64,000 bases of DNA from Vicinamibacteraceae bacterium (lineage in GTDB: Bacteria > Planctomycetota > Phycisphaerae > Phycisphaerales > UBA5793): NCBI GenBank assembly GCA_011525805.1, contig WYBR01000138.1, forward strand, positions 1 to 64,000. Reading direction: 5' to 3'. Below the pieces are notes generated by a model that saw only the letters and a list, made by a program, of their open reading frames with translations, had not been told where the DNA came from and searched no databases. Every line of letters starts with the position of its first letter. Positions within the stretch are counted from its first letter, which is position 1. This document shows, piece by piece, positions 11,144 to 59,469 of this stretch. The position numbers and the translations under genes are program-made.

Positions 11144-11644
11144 ATGCACATGCTGGCAGGATTCGGTCGATCGCGTCGGGAGGCGGAGGATGGCCGCGGG
11201 CGCGGCGCGTCGCCGGGACCGGTGCGCGAGGTGCGAGCCGCGGCCGCGCCAGCGCCGTCGGCGATGCGGGCGGTGCGCTGCCCCTTCTGCGAAGCGCCCT
11301 TCGAGGTGTCGAGCCGGGCGATCAACGCGCGCTGCCCGAAATGCACGAAACCGATGCGCTTCGAGGACGCCGAACTCAACGGCTTCTGCAACCAGAACGT
11401 GACCACGATGGGGACGGTGCGCATCGGCCGCAAGGGCGTGGTGCGCGGCCGTATCGAGTGCGGGTCGCTGGTCGTGAGCGGGCAACTCGACGGCACCATC
11501 CGCATCAACGGGTGCTGCATCGTCCAGCCCCGCGGCGTGCTGCGCGGCGAGATCGCGGCGCGGTCGATGTTGATCGAGCGCGGCGGCTCGTTCGAGGGAA
11601 CGGTGGAGATCGGCGGCGGCGCCGCGGCGCGCCCGGCGGCGTGA
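11144..11644 (+). CDS. Zinc-ribbon/bactofilin fusion protein
   Basis: A 166-aa protein. After a basic, disordered start there is a four-cysteine zinc ribbon (CPFC at 46-49, CPKC at 64-67), then a bactofilin beta-helix (about 85-160) with repeated G-V rungs such as RKGVVRGRIECGSLVVSGQ. Bactofilins normally lack metal-binding modules, so this looks like a variant subunit that may cap or anchor polymers of the adjacent bactofilin; that role is inference. The first ATG is used; a second in-frame ATG lies two codons downstream. It follows the first bactofilin by 25 nt. Confidence 0.87.
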   Translation: MHMLAGFGRSRREAEDGRGRGASPGPVREVRAAAAPAPSAMRAVRCPFCEAPFEVSSRAINARCPKCTKPMRFEDAELNGFCNQNVTTMGTVRIGRKGVVRGRIECGSLVVSGQLDGTIRINGCCIVQPRGVLRGEIAARSMLIERGGSFEGTVEIGGGAAARPAA

Positions 11645-11737
11645 GATCAGCGCCACCGCGCATGAACGGATGCGAAGACGCAAGCGACTCACGCGCCGAA
11701 GACCACCGAGCGTCTCAAGCCTCACGCCCATAACGCA

Positions 11738-11768
11738 ACCACCCGCGTTCGTCATGAACGCGGGTGGT
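11738..11768. terminator. Bidirectional hairpin between convergent genes
   Basis: A perfect 13-bp inverted repeat (ACCACCCGCGTTC at 11738-11750 with its complement at 11756-11768) has a 5-nt loop, GTCAT. It lies between the convergent bactofilin operon and the basic protein gene. There is no T-run on either side, so it is a terminator-like stem and not a canonical rho-independent terminator. A similar stem is present at 48721-48749. Confidence 0.6.
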
Positions 11769-11813
11769 CGAGAATCGACAGGTCATCCGTGACCTGATGG
11801 AAGCGCGAGGCGC

Positions 11814-18868: not shown

Positions 18869-20281
<1,413 letters not shown>

Positions 20282-20383
20282 GGCGCTTTCGCCACGCTTC
20301 GCCCAGCGAGGTGCTGCATGGCGCCGCACGCGGGCGCGGTTGCACGTTCGCCATCGATCTCCACCCAAGGCGGCGGCGATCGA

Positions 20384-22339: not shown

Positions 22340-22387
22340 GGCGTATGCCCCGTCAAAGCGCCGCCGCGGGGCGGGCGCTGGGTTGCT

Positions 22388-23026
22388 TCACTGGGCGATT
22401 CTCACGGCGCTTCCGGCGGCCCCTTGCCGGCGCTCCCGCTGAGCCTCTTCGTTCTCGACCTGCTCGCGGAGCATGCGCCTCGCCCTTACAAGACGTGTCT
22501 CCACGGTGGTTTCCGGCAGGTCCAGCATCTCCGCGACCTGTTTCTGAGACAATCCCCGCACCGCCCGAAGGAGCAGCGGCTCGCGATAGGCTGGGGGAAG
22601 GGTCTGGGCCGCCTCCATGAGGCGCCGGCCGCGTTCGAGCGCGGCGGCGTTTTCGCGCTGCGAAGCGGAGAGCCCGGCCCCAGCCCCGTCGATCGCGTCG
22701 AGATCCTCCGCCTCGCGGAAAAGGCGCATTCGGACCTTGCGCTTGCGCCCGGCGGAACGGGAAGTATTGATGGCGATGGTTCGCAGCCAGGGACGCAGGG
22801 CGCGGAGGTCGGTGAGGGTGTGAATCGAGCGAACCACGAGCAGCGCGACGTCCTGGAGCAGGTCCTCCAGATCGGCGTCGCGCGGCATGTGGGCGAGGAT
22901 GACCGCCGCCACCCAGCGGCGATGCTCGCGCCAGAGCGCATCAATCTCCCCCGCCGTCAGCGAGGCGGGCGGGCGCTCCGACGCGGAATCATCGGGCGGC
23001 GTCGGGCTTGATTCCATTCGCTCCAT
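22388..23026 (-). CDS. ECF-type RNA polymerase sigma factor (module 2)
   Basis: A 212-aa sigma-70-family protein. Region 2: LWREHRRWVAAVILAHMPRDADLEDLLQDVALLV and LRPWLRTIAINTSRSAGRKRKVR (about 30-105). Region 4: LPPAYREPLLLRAVRGLSQKQVAEMLDLPETTVETRLVRARRML (about 145-190), with the helix-turn-helix intact. The ATG at 23026 has GGAG 7 nt upstream; an ATG three codons later is also possible. It heads an operon with a presumed anti-sigma factor and a PDZ protein. Confidence 0.9.
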   Translation of the reverse strand: MERMESSPTPPDDSASERPPASLTAGEIDALWREHRRWVAAVILAHMPRDADLEDLLQDVALLVVRSIHTLTDLRALRPWLRTIAINTSRSAGRKRKVRMRLFREAEDLDAIDGAGAGLSASQRENAAALERGRRLMEAAQTLPPAYREPLLLRAVRGLSQKQVAEMLDLPETTVETRLVRARRMLREQVENEEAQRERRQGAAGSAVRIAQ

Positions 23027-23156: not shown

Positions 23157-24563
23157 TCAGCGCGATCTCAAGGCGGGTTGTCCGGCGAGGTCGGCCCGGC
23201 CGTCGCGGTCAAGGGCGATGCGCCCGCCGACGATGGTCATGACGGCCCGGCCGCGGACCTGCCAGCCCTCGAAGGGGGTGTTGCGCGACTTGCCGGGGAA
23301 GTCGGCGGCGCGGATGGTCCAGGCGGCCTCGGGGTCGATGACGGCGACGTCGGCCGGGGCGCCGACGCTGAGTGTGCCCAGGCGCCACGGGGCCGCGTCG
23401 AGGTTGCACAGCCGCGCGGGGTTGATGGTCATGAGTTCGATGAGGCGCGGCCAGTCGATGATGTGCGTCTCGACGAGCGCCTTGACGTAAAGCGCCAGGG
23501 CGGTTTCGAGGCCGACGATGCCGAAGGGCGCTTTGTCGAAGGGGAGGGCCTTGCGTTCGGCGGTGTGCGGCGCGTGATCGGTGGCGAGGATGGTGATCGT
23601 CCCGTCAGCCACGCCGCGTCGGACGGCCTGAACGTCGGCGCTGCCGCGAAGCGGCGGGTTCATCTTCGCCATTGTGTTGTAGCCCTCACACGCTTCGTCG
23701 GTGAGCAGGAGGTGATGGGGCGAAGCCTCGGCGGAGACGGGCTGACCTTCGGCCCGCGCGCGGCGGACGATCTCGACCGCGCCGGCCGTGGAGATGTGCT
23801 GAACGTGGTAGCGGCAGCCGATGCCGGCGTTGAGGCGAATGTCCCTCTCGATGACGAGTTCCTCGGCGACGGCGGGCCAGCCGATGAGGCCGAGTCGCGT
23901 GGCCGTCGGGCCGGCGTTCATCGCGGCGCCGTGGGTGAGCGTCGGCTCCTGGCAGTGCTGCATCAGCGCCAGGCCGGTCAGTTTGATCTGCGCCAGGGCG
24001 CGGCGCATGACCGCGGCGGACTCGACGACGTCGCCGTCGTCGCTGAAGCCGACCGCCCCGGCCCGGGCCATGAGGCGGATCTCGGCGAGTTCCTGGCCTT
24101 CGCGCCCGGCCGTGACGGCCCCGACGGCAAAGACGCGGCACGAGCCGTGCAGCGCCGCCTGACGGTTGATGAACTCGATCATCGTGCGGCTGTCGAGCGC
24201 GGGGCGGGTGTTGGGCATGCAGCACACCGTCGTGAAGCCGCCGTCGACCGCCGCGGCCGACCCGCTGGCGATCGTCTCTGCATCTTCCGCGCCAGGCTCG
24301 CGCAGGTGAACGTGCGGATCGATCAGGCCGGGGCAGACGATGCAGCCGGAGACGTCGATCACCTGCTCGTCTTCGTGCGGCGGAAGCGGCTGGCCGACAT
24401 GAGCGATGCGCGCCGACGTGCCCGGGCCGCGCGACTCATCGTGTTGGCGCGCCCCACGATTCGAAGACTCATCGTGGGCGTTGTCGACTACGACGTCGCC
24501 GAAGGAGTCGATTTCGTTGGCGGGGTCGATGATCCGGCCGTTGGTCAGGACGAGGCGTTTCAC
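23157..24563 (-). CDS. pyrC: Dihydroorotase, class I, with an unusual N-terminal insertion
   Basis: A 468-aa zinc amidohydrolase that closes carbamoyl-aspartate to dihydroorotate in pyrimidine synthesis. The start is the GTG at 24563 (VKRLVLTNGRIIDP). Metal-site motifs: GLIDPHVHLREPG, LMQHCQEPTLTHG, YHVQHISTAGAVE and ATDHAPHTAERK. Compared with the family, about 25 residues (AHDESSNRGARQHDESRGPGTSA) interrupt the first beta-domain between VVVDN and RIAHVG. That stretch is encoded by repeated and palindromic DNA (24433-24478). Because it lies in the small N-terminal sandwich away from the metal site, the enzyme may still work. Confidence 0.94.
   Translation of the reverse strand: MKRLVLTNGRIIDPANEIDSFGDVVVDNAHDESSNRGARQHDESRGPGTSARIAHVGQPLPPHEDEQVIDVSGCIVCPGLIDPHVHLREPGAEDAETIASGSAAAVDGGFTTVCCMPNTRPALDSRTMIEFINRQAALHGSCRVFAVGAVTAGREGQELAEIRLMARAGAVGFSDDGDVVESAAVMRRALAQIKLTGLALMQHCQEPTLTHGAAMNAGPTATRLGLIGWPAVAEELVIERDIRLNAGIGCRYHVQHISTAGAVEIVRRARAEGQPVSAEASPHHLLLTDEACEGYNTMAKMNPPLRGSADVQAVRRGVADGTITILATDHAPHTAERKALPFDKAPFGIVGLETALALYVKALVETHIIDWPRLIELMTINPARLCNLDAAPWRLGTLSVGAPADVAVIDPEAAWTIRAADFPGKSRNTPFEGWQVRGRAVMTIVGGRIALDRDGRADLAGQPALRSR
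24433..24478. repeat. Palindromic repeat inserted in frame in pyrC
   Basis: Direct repeats of GACTCATCGTG lie at 24433-24443 and 24466-24476. An inverted repeat CCCACGAT/ATCGTGGG (24453-24460 with 24471-24478) encloses TCGAAGACTC. The segment encodes the extra HDESSNRGARQHDES residues of dihydroorotase and looks like a small mobile palindrome captured in frame. Confidence 0.65.
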
Positions 24564-24724
24564 GGGGGCGCCGGCTCCGGTTGATCGGCGTGATGATAGG
24601 AGCCCCGCCGCGGCCGTCAGGTGCGGCTGTGGAGCCGGGGTGCAGTTGAGGATTATGGCGATCACTCCACCGCCGGGAGAATCGGCGTGAAGTCAGCCAT
24701 GTGCGCCGATCGCGCGATGCCTTT

Positions 24725-25016
24725 CGCCCCGAAGGGGCGCGCGAGTTTAGCCACGGGTGAAGCGAAGCGCGGGCGCAGGCCGCGCGAGCGGAACCCGTGG
24801 TCAGTGGTGCGCCCAACTTTCTTTCGCCCCGGCAGGGACGGAGGAGGCGCACGTCTCGCGTTGCGCACACGTCGAGAGATTAATTACGCGACTGCACTTC
24901 CATCGCCTCCATCGCCCCTGCCGGGGCGAGTTCATTTCAAGCGTGCTCACTTCCACGGGTTCCGCGATGCAAGCATCGCTCCACCCGTGGCTACACTCCG
25001 CGACCCCTCCGGGGTC
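24725..25016. repeat. Composite palindromic element E1 (TAGCC/GGCTA family)
   Basis: A 292-bp intergenic element between the pyrC start and the heptosyltransferase end. From left to right: hairpin CGCCCCGAAGGGGCG (24725-24739); arm TAGCCACGGGTG (24748-24759); its partner half ACCCGTGG (24793-24800); a 13-bp stem half at 24824-24836 matched at 24916-24928; an inner palindrome with CCACGGGT (24953-24960), GCGATGC/GCATCGC and ACCCGTGG; the right arm CACCCGTGGCTA (24982-24993), which is the exact complement of the left arm; and a closing hairpin GACCCCTCCGGGGTC (25002-25016). No coding capacity is seen. Very similar to E2 at 41998-42257. Confidence 0.85.
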
Positions 25017-25067
25017 AGATCCGGCACGTCCGCTGTCGAGCGCACATGCCATGATCCTGGACTACTC

Positions 25068-26123
25068 TCAGGCGCGGCTGCGGAGCATGTCATCGCAGGC
25101 CTGCACGACCTGGTCGACGGTCAGTCTCGTAATCCGCCGATCGGGCGCGATGACCTGCCGCTCGAGCGGATAGTCGATCGCGGCCCAGCGCGGGTCGGTC
25201 GGGCCGAAGAGCGTCACGATCGCCGGCATCGGCGCGTGCGGGCGCTCGGCAGCGCATGAGAATGCGGCGGCGGCGGCGATGTGGCGCGTGCCGGTGTCGT
25301 TGGTTACGACCAGGGTTGCCCGCGGCAGGATCGCCTTGAGCGAGCCGAGCGTAACGTCCTTCGCGGCGAGATCGACCGGTTGCGATCGCGCCGCCGAGAC
25401 GATCTCACGAACGAGGGATCGCTCCACCGGCGAACCGCTGATGAGCACGTTCAACCCGTGCGATTGCGCGAGATGATCGGCAAGCGCGGCGAATCGCACA
25501 GCCGGCCAGCGCTTCTCCGCTTTGCTCGCCCCGGGGTTGAGCAGGGCGAACTCGATGCCTTCGACAATTCCGGCCTTGTCGAGCAGCGCCCGGGCCGCCT
25601 GGGCCTGCGCCTCTGAGGGGCGAAGCATCATCCGCCGGTCCGACGAGTCGATGCCCAGCGAGCGCCCGAGGGCGAGGTAGTAGTCGATGGCGGAGATCGG
25701 CTCCTTCCACCCGCCGGACGTCGGACAGGGCGGGACGTTCGTGAGCAGCCAGCCGCGGGCGTCGCGGTTGTAGCCGATGCGGGTGGGGATGCGCGCCAGG
25801 CGCACCGTGGCGGCGAGTCGCCAACTGTTGGGCAGCAGGATCGCCGCGTCGAAGCCGTGCTCTGCGAGTCGCCGGCCTTCGCGCCACGGGCCGAGCAGCC
25901 CCGCCGGACGCCCGACGATCATCTCGTCGAGCAACCTGCCGCCGTCGAGCAACTCGTCCAGCCCCGGCCGCATGTAGCCGGCGAAGTGTGCCTCGCGCAG
26001 CCTTTCATGATGGCGCAGCGCGCCAAGCAGCGGCGTGGCCATTGTGGCATCGCCCACCCACGACGGCAGCACGACAAGAATGCGCCGCAGGCGCGACCAG
26101 TCGAGTGGTGCGGGATCGTTCAT
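25068..26123 (-). CDS. ADP-heptose:LPS heptosyltransferase-like glycosyltransferase (GT9)
   Basis: A 351-aa GT9-family protein. These cytoplasmic enzymes add heptose (or a related sugar) from an ADP-sugar to the inner core of lipopolysaccharide. The N-terminus ILVVLPSWVGDATMATPLLGALR matches the WaaF/WaaC opening (LPxxVGD). The C-terminal nucleotide-sugar site includes LLNPGASKAEKRWP, LISGSPVERSLVREI, VVTNDTGTRHIAAA and ALFGPTDPRW-like VTLFGPTDPRWAAI. Start ATG at 26123 overlaps the stop of the preceding 96-aa gene by 4 nt (ATGA), so translation is coupled. The exact sugar and acceptor are not determinable. Confidence 0.9.
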   Translation of the reverse strand: MNDPAPLDWSRLRRILVVLPSWVGDATMATPLLGALRHHERLREAHFAGYMRPGLDELLDGGRLLDEMIVGRPAGLLGPWREGRRLAEHGFDAAILLPNSWRLAATVRLARIPTRIGYNRDARGWLLTNVPPCPTSGGWKEPISAIDYYLALGRSLGIDSSDRRMMLRPSEAQAQAARALLDKAGIVEGIEFALLNPGASKAEKRWPAVRFAALADHLAQSHGLNVLISGSPVERSLVREIVSAARSQPVDLAAKDVTLGSLKAILPRATLVVTNDTGTRHIAAAAAFSCAAERPHAPMPAIVTLFGPTDPRWAAIDYPLERQVIAPDRRITRLTVDQVVQACDDMLRSRA

Positions 26124-41997: not shown

Positions 41998-42257
41998 CGC
42001 TCCGAAGGAGCGCCGGAATGTAGCCACGGGTGGAGCATCGCGAAGCAAGTGGAACCCGTGGTCATGGATCGGTAGAGCGGTTCCGCCCCGACGGGGCGGC
42101 GGAGGCGCGAGTCACGCGATAACGGAGATCGACCCTGGCGCAATCGGGTGATTCCTTCGCCCCTCCGGGGCGAGATTTCGCTTTGATACGCTTTCCACGG
42201 GTTCCGTGATGCTCTGCATCACTCCACCCGTGGCTACATTCCGCGACCCCTTCGGGG
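41998..42257. repeat. Composite palindromic element E2 (TAGCC/GGCTA family)
   Basis: A 260-bp intergenic element closely similar to E1. Hairpin CGCTCCGAAGGAGCG (41998-42012); left arm TAGCCACGGGTGG (42021-42033); GGAACCCGTGG (42051-42061); hairpins CCGCCCCGACGGGGCGG (42083-42099) and CGCCCCTCCGGGGCG (42158-42172); CCACGGGTTCC and GTGATGC/GCATCAC (42206-42222); right arm CCACCCGTGGCTA (42224-42236), the exact complement of the left arm; closing hairpin CCCCTTCGGGG (42247-42257). It lies between the end of DAHP synthase and the promoter of the FHA kinase. Confidence 0.85.
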
Positions 42258-42278
42258 CCGACTTCTAGAAAGAGTGGT

Positions 42279-43712
42279 CTACGCGCTCGCCAGCCTTCGT
42301 GCGATCAGGAACGACATCTCCAGCGACTGTTCGTAGTTGAGACGTGGGTCGCACATGGTGCGGTAGTTGGCATCGAGATCGGCTTCGCTCAGGCCGCGGG
42401 CGCCGCCGGTGCATTCGGTGACGTGGTCGCCGGTCAACTCAAAGTGGACGCCGCCGAGATACGTGCCCGCCTTCGCGTGCAGGTCGAAGGAGGCGTCGAG
42501 TTCGCCGAGGATGTCGGCGAAGTCGCGGGTCTTGCGAGCCGCCGCGTCCTCGCGGCGGATCGCGTCCGACGTCCCTGTGCCCGCGCCGAGGACGTCGCGG
42601 CTCGCGGCGCCGCCGACGTCGCGGCTCACGGCTTTCGTATTCCCGTGCATCGGATCGCAGACCCACAGCACGCGGCGATCGGTGCGGTTCACCGCCTCGA
42701 GCAGCGGCGGCAGGCAGCGCTGCACGCTCGCCAATCCCATCCTGTGAATGAGCACGAGGCGGCCGGGTTCGTTGGCCGGATTCAGCCGATCGATCAGCGC
42801 CAGCACGTCATCAGGAGTAGCGCTTGTCCCGAGTTTGACGCCGATAGGATTGCGCACGCCGCGGAAGAACTCGACGTGCGCGCCGTCCAGGGCGCGGCAG
42901 CGGTCGCCGATCCACGGCAGGTGGGCGGTAAGGTTGTAATGTCCCTGGCGCCGCGGAACCGTACGCGTGCCCGCGCTTTCGTAGAGCAGGTGCAGCCCCT
43001 CGTGGCTCGTGAAGAACTCGACGCGCGTGAGGTCGTCGATCGCCTGGCCGGCGATCGTCTCCATGAAGCGGACCGAGTCGGAGAGGCGCCTCACCATCGA
43101 GTGGTACTCCTCGTGGAGCGCCGCGTTGTCGCAGAAGGCCAGTTCCCAGTATTCGGGATGGTGCAGGTCGGCAAAGCCCGCGTCGATGAGCGAGCGGATG
43201 AAGTTGAGCGTGAGCGCGGCGTGCTGGTAGCAGCGGACCATGAGATGCGGATTGGGCCGGCGGGCCTCGGGCGTGAACTCGATCGAGTTGATGAGATCGC
43301 CGAAGTAACTCGGCAGCGTGAGGCTGCGGCCGTCGGGGCCGGTTCGCGTCTCCGTCGCGCTGGAGCGCGGCTTGGCGTACTGGCCCGCGAAGCGGCCGAT
43401 GCGCGTGATCGGCTTGCGGGCGCCCTGCACGAGCACCAGGCTCATCTGGAGAAGAATCTTGAGTTTGTTGGTGATGACGTCGGGCGTGCAGTCGGCCAGC
43501 GACTCGGCGCAGTCGCCGCCCTGGAGGATGAAGCGCCGGCCCTGCTGCGCCTCGGCGAGTTCGCCCTTGAGGCGCTCGATCTCCCAACTGGTCACCAGCG
43601 GGGGAAAGGAGCGCAGGCGGGCCACGGCCGTCTCGACCGCCCGCGCGTCGTCGTAGGCCGGCTGATGCAGCGCGGGACGCGACTTCCAGGATTCAACCGA
43701 CCAGTCCGACAC
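42279..43712 (-). CDS. Class II 3-deoxy-7-phosphoheptulonate (DAHP) synthase with an internal insertion
   Basis: A 477-aa enzyme joining phosphoenolpyruvate and erythrose 4-phosphate, the first step of the shikimate pathway. Start: GTG at 43712 (VSDWSVESWKSRPALHQPAY) with GGAG 5 nt upstream. Signature blocks: LQGGDCAE (63-70), KPITRIGRFAGQYAKPRS, FFTSHEGLHLLYE, VKLGTSATPDDVL, VCDPMHGNT (351-359) and GGVHFELTGDHVTECTGG (420-437), covering the metal and substrate residues. Between HGNT and KTRDF, where the family has about six residues, there are about 33 (residues 360-393, with two SRDV repeats), encoded by repetitive DNA at 42534-42631. Confidence 0.94.
   Translation of the reverse strand: MSDWSVESWKSRPALHQPAYDDARAVETAVARLRSFPPLVTSWEIERLKGELAEAQQGRRFILQGGDCAESLADCTPDVITNKLKILLQMSLVLVQGARKPITRIGRFAGQYAKPRSSATETRTGPDGRSLTLPSYFGDLINSIEFTPEARRPNPHLMVRCYQHAALTLNFIRSLIDAGFADLHHPEYWELAFCDNAALHEEYHSMVRRLSDSVRFMETIAGQAIDDLTRVEFFTSHEGLHLLYESAGTRTVPRRQGHYNLTAHLPWIGDRCRALDGAHVEFFRGVRNPIGVKLGTSATPDDVLALIDRLNPANEPGRLVLIHRMGLASVQRCLPPLLEAVNRTDRRVLWVCDPMHGNTKAVSRDVGGAASRDVLGAGTGTSDAIRREDAAARKTRDFADILGELDASFDLHAKAGTYLGGVHFELTGDHVTECTGGARGLSEADLDANYRTMCDPRLNYEQSLEMSFLIARRLASA
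42534..42631. repeat. Dispersed repeat inserted in frame in the DAHP synthase gene
   Basis: The 24 nt at 42534-42557 are the exact reverse complement of 9044-9067 in the uvrB-side repeat. Further right are two 17-nt direct copies of GACGTCGCGGCTCGCGG (42591-42607 and 42615-42631, one mismatch), and 42588-42607 resembles 9050-9069 with two changes. The segment forms inverted repeats with itself and encodes the extra residues of the enzyme. Confidence 0.75.
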
Positions 43713-59210: not shown

Positions 59211-59469
59211 CAGACCGAAGGTCTGGTCGTCAGTAGCCGGGGGTGAAGCGAGTCTTTGAGCGCCACCCCCGGACAGCGTCGCGACCCGAAGTTCCTGGAC
59301 CCCGAAGGGGTCCTTGTCGTGGACGGCGGTTCCCGGACATCGAACGCGAGAGATACGATCGGCCTCTACTTCCACTCCTTCGGAGTGGAGGATGGGATTG
59401 CTGCATGTCGCGTTCCGGGGGTGGCGCTGCGCTTCACCCCCGGCTACTGACGAAGAGGCCTTCGGCCTC
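59211..59469. repeat. Composite palindromic element E3 (TAGCC/GGCTA family)
   Basis: A 259-bp intergenic element (within the gap 59129-59611) with the same plan as E1/E2 but different sequence. Hairpin CAGACCGAAGGTCTG (59211-59225); left arm TAGCCGGGGGTGAAGCG (59234-59250); inner arm CGCCACCCCCGGA (59261-59273); hairpins GGACCCCGAAGGGGTCC (59297-59313) and CACTCCTTCGGAGTG (59383-59397); inner arm TCCGGGGGTGGCG (59414-59426); right arm CGCTTCACCCCCGGCTA (59430-59446), the exact complement of the left arm; closing hairpin GAGGCCTTCGGCCTC (59455-59469). It separates two crotonase genes. Confidence 0.85.

Follow-up and report, generated by a model that had tools for sequence, protein, structure and literature searches.

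Three palindromic elements, E1 to E3, lie in intergenic DNA of the 64-kb window (the whole stretch analysed here), and they raise the question of whether they represent mobile DNA, of the RAYT/REP or the MITE-like kind, or a structured RNA family. E1 (nt 24725–25016) is found between genes for an amidohydrolase and a glycosyltransferase 9, E2 (nt 41998–42260) between an FHA-GAF-ATPase gene and a gene for class II DAHP synthase, and E3 (nt 59211–59469) between two enoyl-CoA hydratase genes. All three follow one plan, consisting of an outer hairpin, a 7-nt linker, a tag, a REP palindrome, a spacer, an inner hairpin and a centre, after which the mirror image follows. Each is an inverted pair of a single composite unit, i.e. 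a short hairpin, a 7-nt linker, NTAG and a long palindrome.

On the left side of E1 (plus strand) the outer hairpin (nt 24725–24739) is followed by a REP with a tag that has decayed to TTAG (nt 24747–24800) and by the inner hairpin (nt 24825–24840); the right side (minus strand) has an inner hairpin (nt 24913–24928), a REP of the form GTAGCCACGGGT...ACCCGTGG with the tag GTAG (nt 24953–24994) and an outer hairpin (nt 25002–25016). E2 carries GTAG on both sides, with an outer hairpin, REP and inner hairpin at nt 41998–42012, 42020–42061 and 42083–42099 of the plus strand, and an inner hairpin, REP and outer hairpin at nt 42158–42172, 42195–42237 and 42243–42260 of the minus strand. The corresponding parts of E3 are at nt 59211–59225, 59233–59272 and 59297–59313 (plus strand) and at nt 59372–59388, 59415–59447 and 59455–59469 (minus strand), where both REPs belong to a second family, GTAGCCGGGGGT.

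Folded as single-stranded DNA, E1, E2 and E3 gave z-scores of -9.1, -8.4 and -9.2 relative to dinucleotide shuffles, none of which equalled them; positions, anatomy and folding together confirm that these are real structured elements. When both strands of the complete 64 kb were scanned blind for a hairpin followed by 4–12 nt, NTAG and a palindrome of at least 7 bp, five matches came up, all inside E1–E3 and every one with a 7-nt linker, and nothing of this grammar elsewhere in the window. E1 and E2 had been described as nearly alike, which is too strong, as they are 77% identical over 258 aligned columns (E1/E3, 65%; E2/E3, 61%). The outer arms, said to be exact complements, are indeed mirrored and tagged, but the tags do not always agree (TTAG on the left of E1, GTAG on its right).

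More copies were looked for in the source genome, G000 (a member of the Phycisphaerales; 4.54 Mb, draft), where about 20 loci have REPs of the E1/E2 type and 4 have REPs of the E3 type, giving ~24 by our own count of distinct sites, and REP pairs occur across the order Phycisphaerales. In 147 distinct REP units, an outer stem CCACGGGT/ACCCGTGG (the invariance of which is imposed by the search pattern) is followed nearly always by a 3x3 GNA/GNA internal loop, and then by an inner stem that is highly variable in sequence and length. An alignment of 21 units (48 nt) revealed compensatory changes at five inner-stem pairs, which bears out the expectation of compensatory pairing; 96.8% of the inner-stem cells pair, and the covariation score lies beyond that of every shuffle. 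The tag reads GTAG in 106 of 109 Phycisphaerales units. Beyond it, the second (outer) hairpin commonly has the loops GAA, GGA, AAC or AGC, and conservation stops 4–6 nt past this hairpin, a place at which CT is enriched. The repeats of G000 have the properties by which GTAG REPs are defined (a short imperfect palindrome, an unpaired 5' GTAG and many intergenic copies), and E1–E3, being inverted pairs with the tags outside, have those of REPINs. A literature search with the REP consensus strings returned only unrelated papers, apparently holding primer sequences.

REPs of the E1/E2 type also lie on both sides, in inverted orientation, of the sole intact tnpA homologue in G000 (contig C101, nt 20002–20346). 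The inner hairpins of E1 and E2 correspond to hairpins lying between REP and tnpA, so the elements may be read as an autonomous unit (outer hairpin, NTAG-REP, inner hairpin, tnpA and the mirror image) minus the gene. In Phycisphaerales, GTAGCCACGGGT...ACCCGTGG flanks about 50 tnpA genes (72–86% identity), either singly or as a pair around the gene, and a stricter grammar scan found the unit on at least one side of 51 of 65 Phycisphaerales tnpA loci (both sides in 31). For comparison, the scan was positive at none of the 23 other Y1 genes in the genus and in 1 of 2560 Markov controls. No unit was detectable at L190, a subclass 1.2 gene in the genus. Linkers at the tnpA flanks measured 6–8 nt where 2–20 nt was allowed, in Phycisphaerales and in the set from other phyla (see below) alike. 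In the sister species G004 a paralogous tnpA is flanked by E3-type REPs in the same layout. Intact copies number one in G000 and 1–3 in the sister genomes. G001, G003 and G004 have the tnpA block at one syntenic locus, and G000 has it at a different place; the locus shared by three species suggests that the block is itself rarely mobile. A decayed second tnpA with an in-frame TAG stop (loci L026 / L005; G000 contig C41, nt 22343–22507) was seen adjoining a GTAGCCACGGGT REP.

The encoded protein has a Y1_Tnp domain with the HUH motif (HVH) and the catalytic tyrosine, and its closest named homologues are from Phycisphaerales. The motif of the TnpA group is Y---Q--HH (Y---Q--RH in the G000 copy), and the class 2 RAYT motif, Y---NP, is absent. 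TnpA matches the IS200/IS605 profile NF033573 (NCBIfam) and gave no match to the RAYT profile NF047646, for which the control, E. coli RayT, scored 179 bits. Class 2 was split from the TnpA group (support 100/99) in a tree with few references and long branches; IS605 references were placed inside subclass 1.2, a position that carries a long-branch warning and was not used. Two candidate sequences were dropped, a Salmonella plasmid piece considered as an IS200 reference, which adjoins an effector gene, and a Nostoc match, which is a short tnpA beside tnpB. An AlphaFold model of TnpA (pLDDT 89) has its best fold matches in ISDra2 (E 3.6e-10) and IS608, with a weaker match to the REP-bound RayT 4er8 (E 3.8e-5). 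A W-Q pair is invariant in the TnpA group; E. coli RayT has it too, the IS605 references lack it, and Q95 of RayT is one of its GTAG-contacting residues.

Subclass 1.2 of TnpA_Y1 was described by Quentin (2018, PMC6006769) as having the Y---Q--HH signature, low copy number, an IS200-like core and a C-terminal extension, all of which are common to the present group. By the same account, its members are generally without typical terminal structures and belong mainly to Cyanobacteria and Bacteroidetes, and where REPs are treated only class 2 and class 3 groups are mentioned; those found here, in contrast, belong to Planctomycetota, Verrucomicrobiota and Acidobacteriota, and have REPs. No report of REPs for subclass 1.2 transposases was found in the literature consulted. 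Judged from its sequence, the TnpA of G000 is a subclass 1.2, IS200-like Y1 transposase and not a class 2 RAYT. A RAYT (IS200-like) gene had been proposed as the partner of the elements, and of this proposal the Y1 gene with REP flanks stands while the class does not.

E1–E3 are very probably REPIN-like inverted pairs of a REP unit with two hairpins, which serves a subclass 1.2 Y1 HUH transposase as its substrate, with some copies nested in a DDE-type element. Where the DNA becomes single-stranded, as on the lagging-strand template, TnpA would bind the folded unit, take NTAG as a guide, cut with its tyrosine at the CT dinucleotide just beyond the outer hairpin, and move or copy the REP pair without target duplication. 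E1 and E2 would represent one tnpA-REP pair, and E3 a second, the transposase of which survives in the sister species. Binding, cleavage and mobilisation of the REP units by TnpA are what we infer from this arrangement.

The system is a new form of the partnership between REPs and a transposase, in which MITEs add a further, nested layer. It shares with the REPIN/BIME and REPtron systems of RAYTs (E. coli, Pseudomonas) the GTAG-tagged imperfect palindrome with in-stem mismatches, the inverted pairs with tags outside, and a low-copy Y1 gene between repeats. It differs in the Y---Q--HH transposase without a match to NF047646, in the addition of an inner hairpin and of an outer hairpin 6–8 nt before the tag, and in a tag that across phyla is NTAG. 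GTAG families 1–24 (Di Nocera 2013, PMC3733652) likewise have the GTAG tag, a 6–13 bp stem and HH dimers, with complementary loops in some families, and Planctomycetes are named among their hosts; the available part of that text describes no outer hairpin, a comparison made by description, and one of the R. baltica families may be identical to ours.

Insertion polymorphism between G000 and its sister species bears on the predicted mobility of the palindromes. The site orthologous to E1 is empty in G002, the E2 site is short in G003 and G004, and each of the four sister species has a short E3 site. Loss at three sites elsewhere, rather than gain in G000, would seem the less likely explanation, and E1–E3 would have arrived by transposition. 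An older insertion of the E type (C7) occupies the same place in G000, G003 and G004, which indicates activity of the family over a longer period. The prediction of a non-autonomous REP-type mobile family is thus upheld by the copies, the flanked Y1 gene, the covariation and the empty sites, though not as to the RAYT class.

For E1, the limits given above define only the core. The insertion itself is 430 bp (about nt 24638–25067), has decayed terminal inverted repeats (TIRs) of the GGTGTAGTCCA type, and is bordered by a 19-bp target duplication, TCAGGTGCGGCTGTGGAGC, the left copy of which (nt 24617–24635) matches the right (nt 25068–25086, overlapping the 3' end of the gene for glycosyltransferase 9) at 17/19 positions; the empty site in G002 has a single homologous stretch. 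Many copies in G000 have GGTGTAGTCCA ends, a length of mostly 430–490 bp and target duplications (TSDs) of mostly 8–9 bp (range 8 to 19), such as the 9-bp examples GATCATCGG, CGTTTCGTC, GCCGTCGAG and AGTGCCGTG. Exact duplications of at least 8 bp were present at 8 of 14 TIR-bounded elements, a result obtained in 0 of 2000 permutations. The GGTGTAGTCCA sequence contains GTAG and was considered as a RAYT-type end, but rejected because target duplications imply a staggered cut. Target duplications are not known to be produced by HUH Y1 enzymes, and the larger GGTGTAGTCCA-ended elements, including that with E1 at its core, would therefore have been moved in trans by a second transposase, of the DDE type. 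An autonomous element with these ends was not found in 301 Phycisphaerales genomes (draft assemblies). Of the alternatives originally offered, RAYT/REP or MITE-like, both apply, as for some copies, including E1, the REP pairs lie nested inside a TIR/TSD element.

The larger elements resemble MITEs in their GGTGTAGTCCA ends, their duplications and their non-coding, palindromic nature, and the outer element differs from these in carrying two different REP-pair families as cargo. It is improbable that E1–E3 are purely DDE-type MITEs, spread without any part played by the Y1 enzyme and containing REP units only as palindromic filler or as passengers. Such a view accounts for the TIRs and TSDs at most full-length G000 copies, and for the identical ends that surround both REP families and one unrelated palindrome (contig C37), with one recognisable end per copy in the E3 type. 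The ends are, however, a feature of G000 alone (13 exact matches there, and no more than one in any of 300 other genomes), whereas REP pairs are found order-wide and REP units track tnpA; nor were GGTGTAGTCCA ends or target duplications seen at E2 and E3, the exact limits of which could not be set. Two related structures were observed. In L036 (G000 contig C37, nt 11439–11813) a GGTGTAGTCCA element has been invaded by a palindromic element with CAGGGCGATCGCG... ends, and some 10 bp of its terminal repeat (GGGTGTAGTC) are duplicated by the invader. L148 (G002 contig C34, nt 1501–1899) is a 399-bp element with the variant ends GGTGGAGTCCGG/GGTGTTGTCCGG, perhaps a diverged outer TIR element, at which a clear target duplication was not seen.

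Homologues of TnpA with roughly 40–50% identity occur in Verrucomicrobiota, Acidobacteriota and others, where tnpA is flanked by a hairpin, 6–8 nt and a [T/A]TAGCC palindrome; 11 of 22 of these loci were positive in the grammar scan. At L267, L269 and L270 the flanking units match the Rfam family RF01687 (Acido-Lenti-1 RNA), inverted on the two sides, although on one side of the L267 gene the match falls below the gathering score, and verrucomicrobial tnpA flanks have sub-threshold matches at equivalent places. The genomes of L270, L267 and L269, chosen for having tnpA, contain 136, 104 and 53 matches, respectively, compared with 0 in 14 control genomes. RF01687 is catalogued as an sRNA of Acidobacteria and Lentisphaerae with unknown function, and a 2026 paper (PMC13298647) considers Acido-Lenti-1 to be possibly involved in protease regulation. 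Read on the other strand, its layout (a palindrome, GGCTA, a linker and a UUC-loop hairpin) is that of the units described here. Since its units flank subclass 1.2 tnpA, Acido-Lenti-1 is probably a transposase-linked DNA repeat, and its assignment to subclass 1.2 transposases finds good support in the position and pairing of these sequences. E1–E3 match no Rfam family at the gathering threshold, RF01687 included, and are tied to it by layout and homologous transposase, not by score.

That the elements form a family of structured RNAs, of terminator-like or regulatory nature and only incidentally associated with tnpA, is slightly less probable again than that they are pure MITEs. Strong folding and compensatory changes would suit an RNA, as would the filing of the homologous Acidobacteriota unit as an sRNA and its designation as 'probably RNA' by Weinberg (2010), but RNA genes would not readily explain inverted pairs with a constant span (of 35 pairs of neighbouring RF01687 units, 31 are arranged (-,+), at 181–243 bp), units that flank tnpA symmetrically, or polymorphism between sister species. 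No positive evidence was found for an RNA role, a part of the original prediction, and the Rfam searches of the window gave no match at gathering score. The least probable explanation, that the elements derive from an ordinary IS200 element as its ends or as copies with internal deletions, draws on the NCBIfam name and the ISDra2 and IS608 folds, but conflicts with the few intact tnpA copies per genome at a locus conserved in three sister species (i.e. not a multicopy mobile IS), with dispersed inverted REP pairs that far outnumber tnpA, and with two traits known from RAYTs, the GTAG-type tag and the W-Q pair.

If E1–E3 are REPIN-like substrates of TnpA, a likely substrate is provided for a transposase class for which we found none in the literature consulted, and the REP-transposase partnership would extend beyond RAYTs. 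It is likely that subclass 1.2 Y1 enzymes form a second REP-maintaining lineage, with a two-hairpin NTAG substrate in at least three phyla, and that Acido-Lenti-1 represents this repeat at the DNA level rather than an sRNA; genome annotation would then be using, as an Rfam 'sRNA', a transposase-linked repeat. Since paralogous tnpA-REP pairs exist inside a single genus, the recognition code can be put to the test.

Two repeats were also observed inside genes of the window. A short palindrome, CCCACGAT..ATCGTGGG, lies in the amidohydrolase gene (nt 24448–24481) and has dozens of matches in G000 and the sister genomes, forming an in-gene repeat family. The class II DAHP synthase gene contains a repeated, partly palindromic stretch (nt 42517–42630) with many partial matches across the genus, part of which is lacking from the sister genes.
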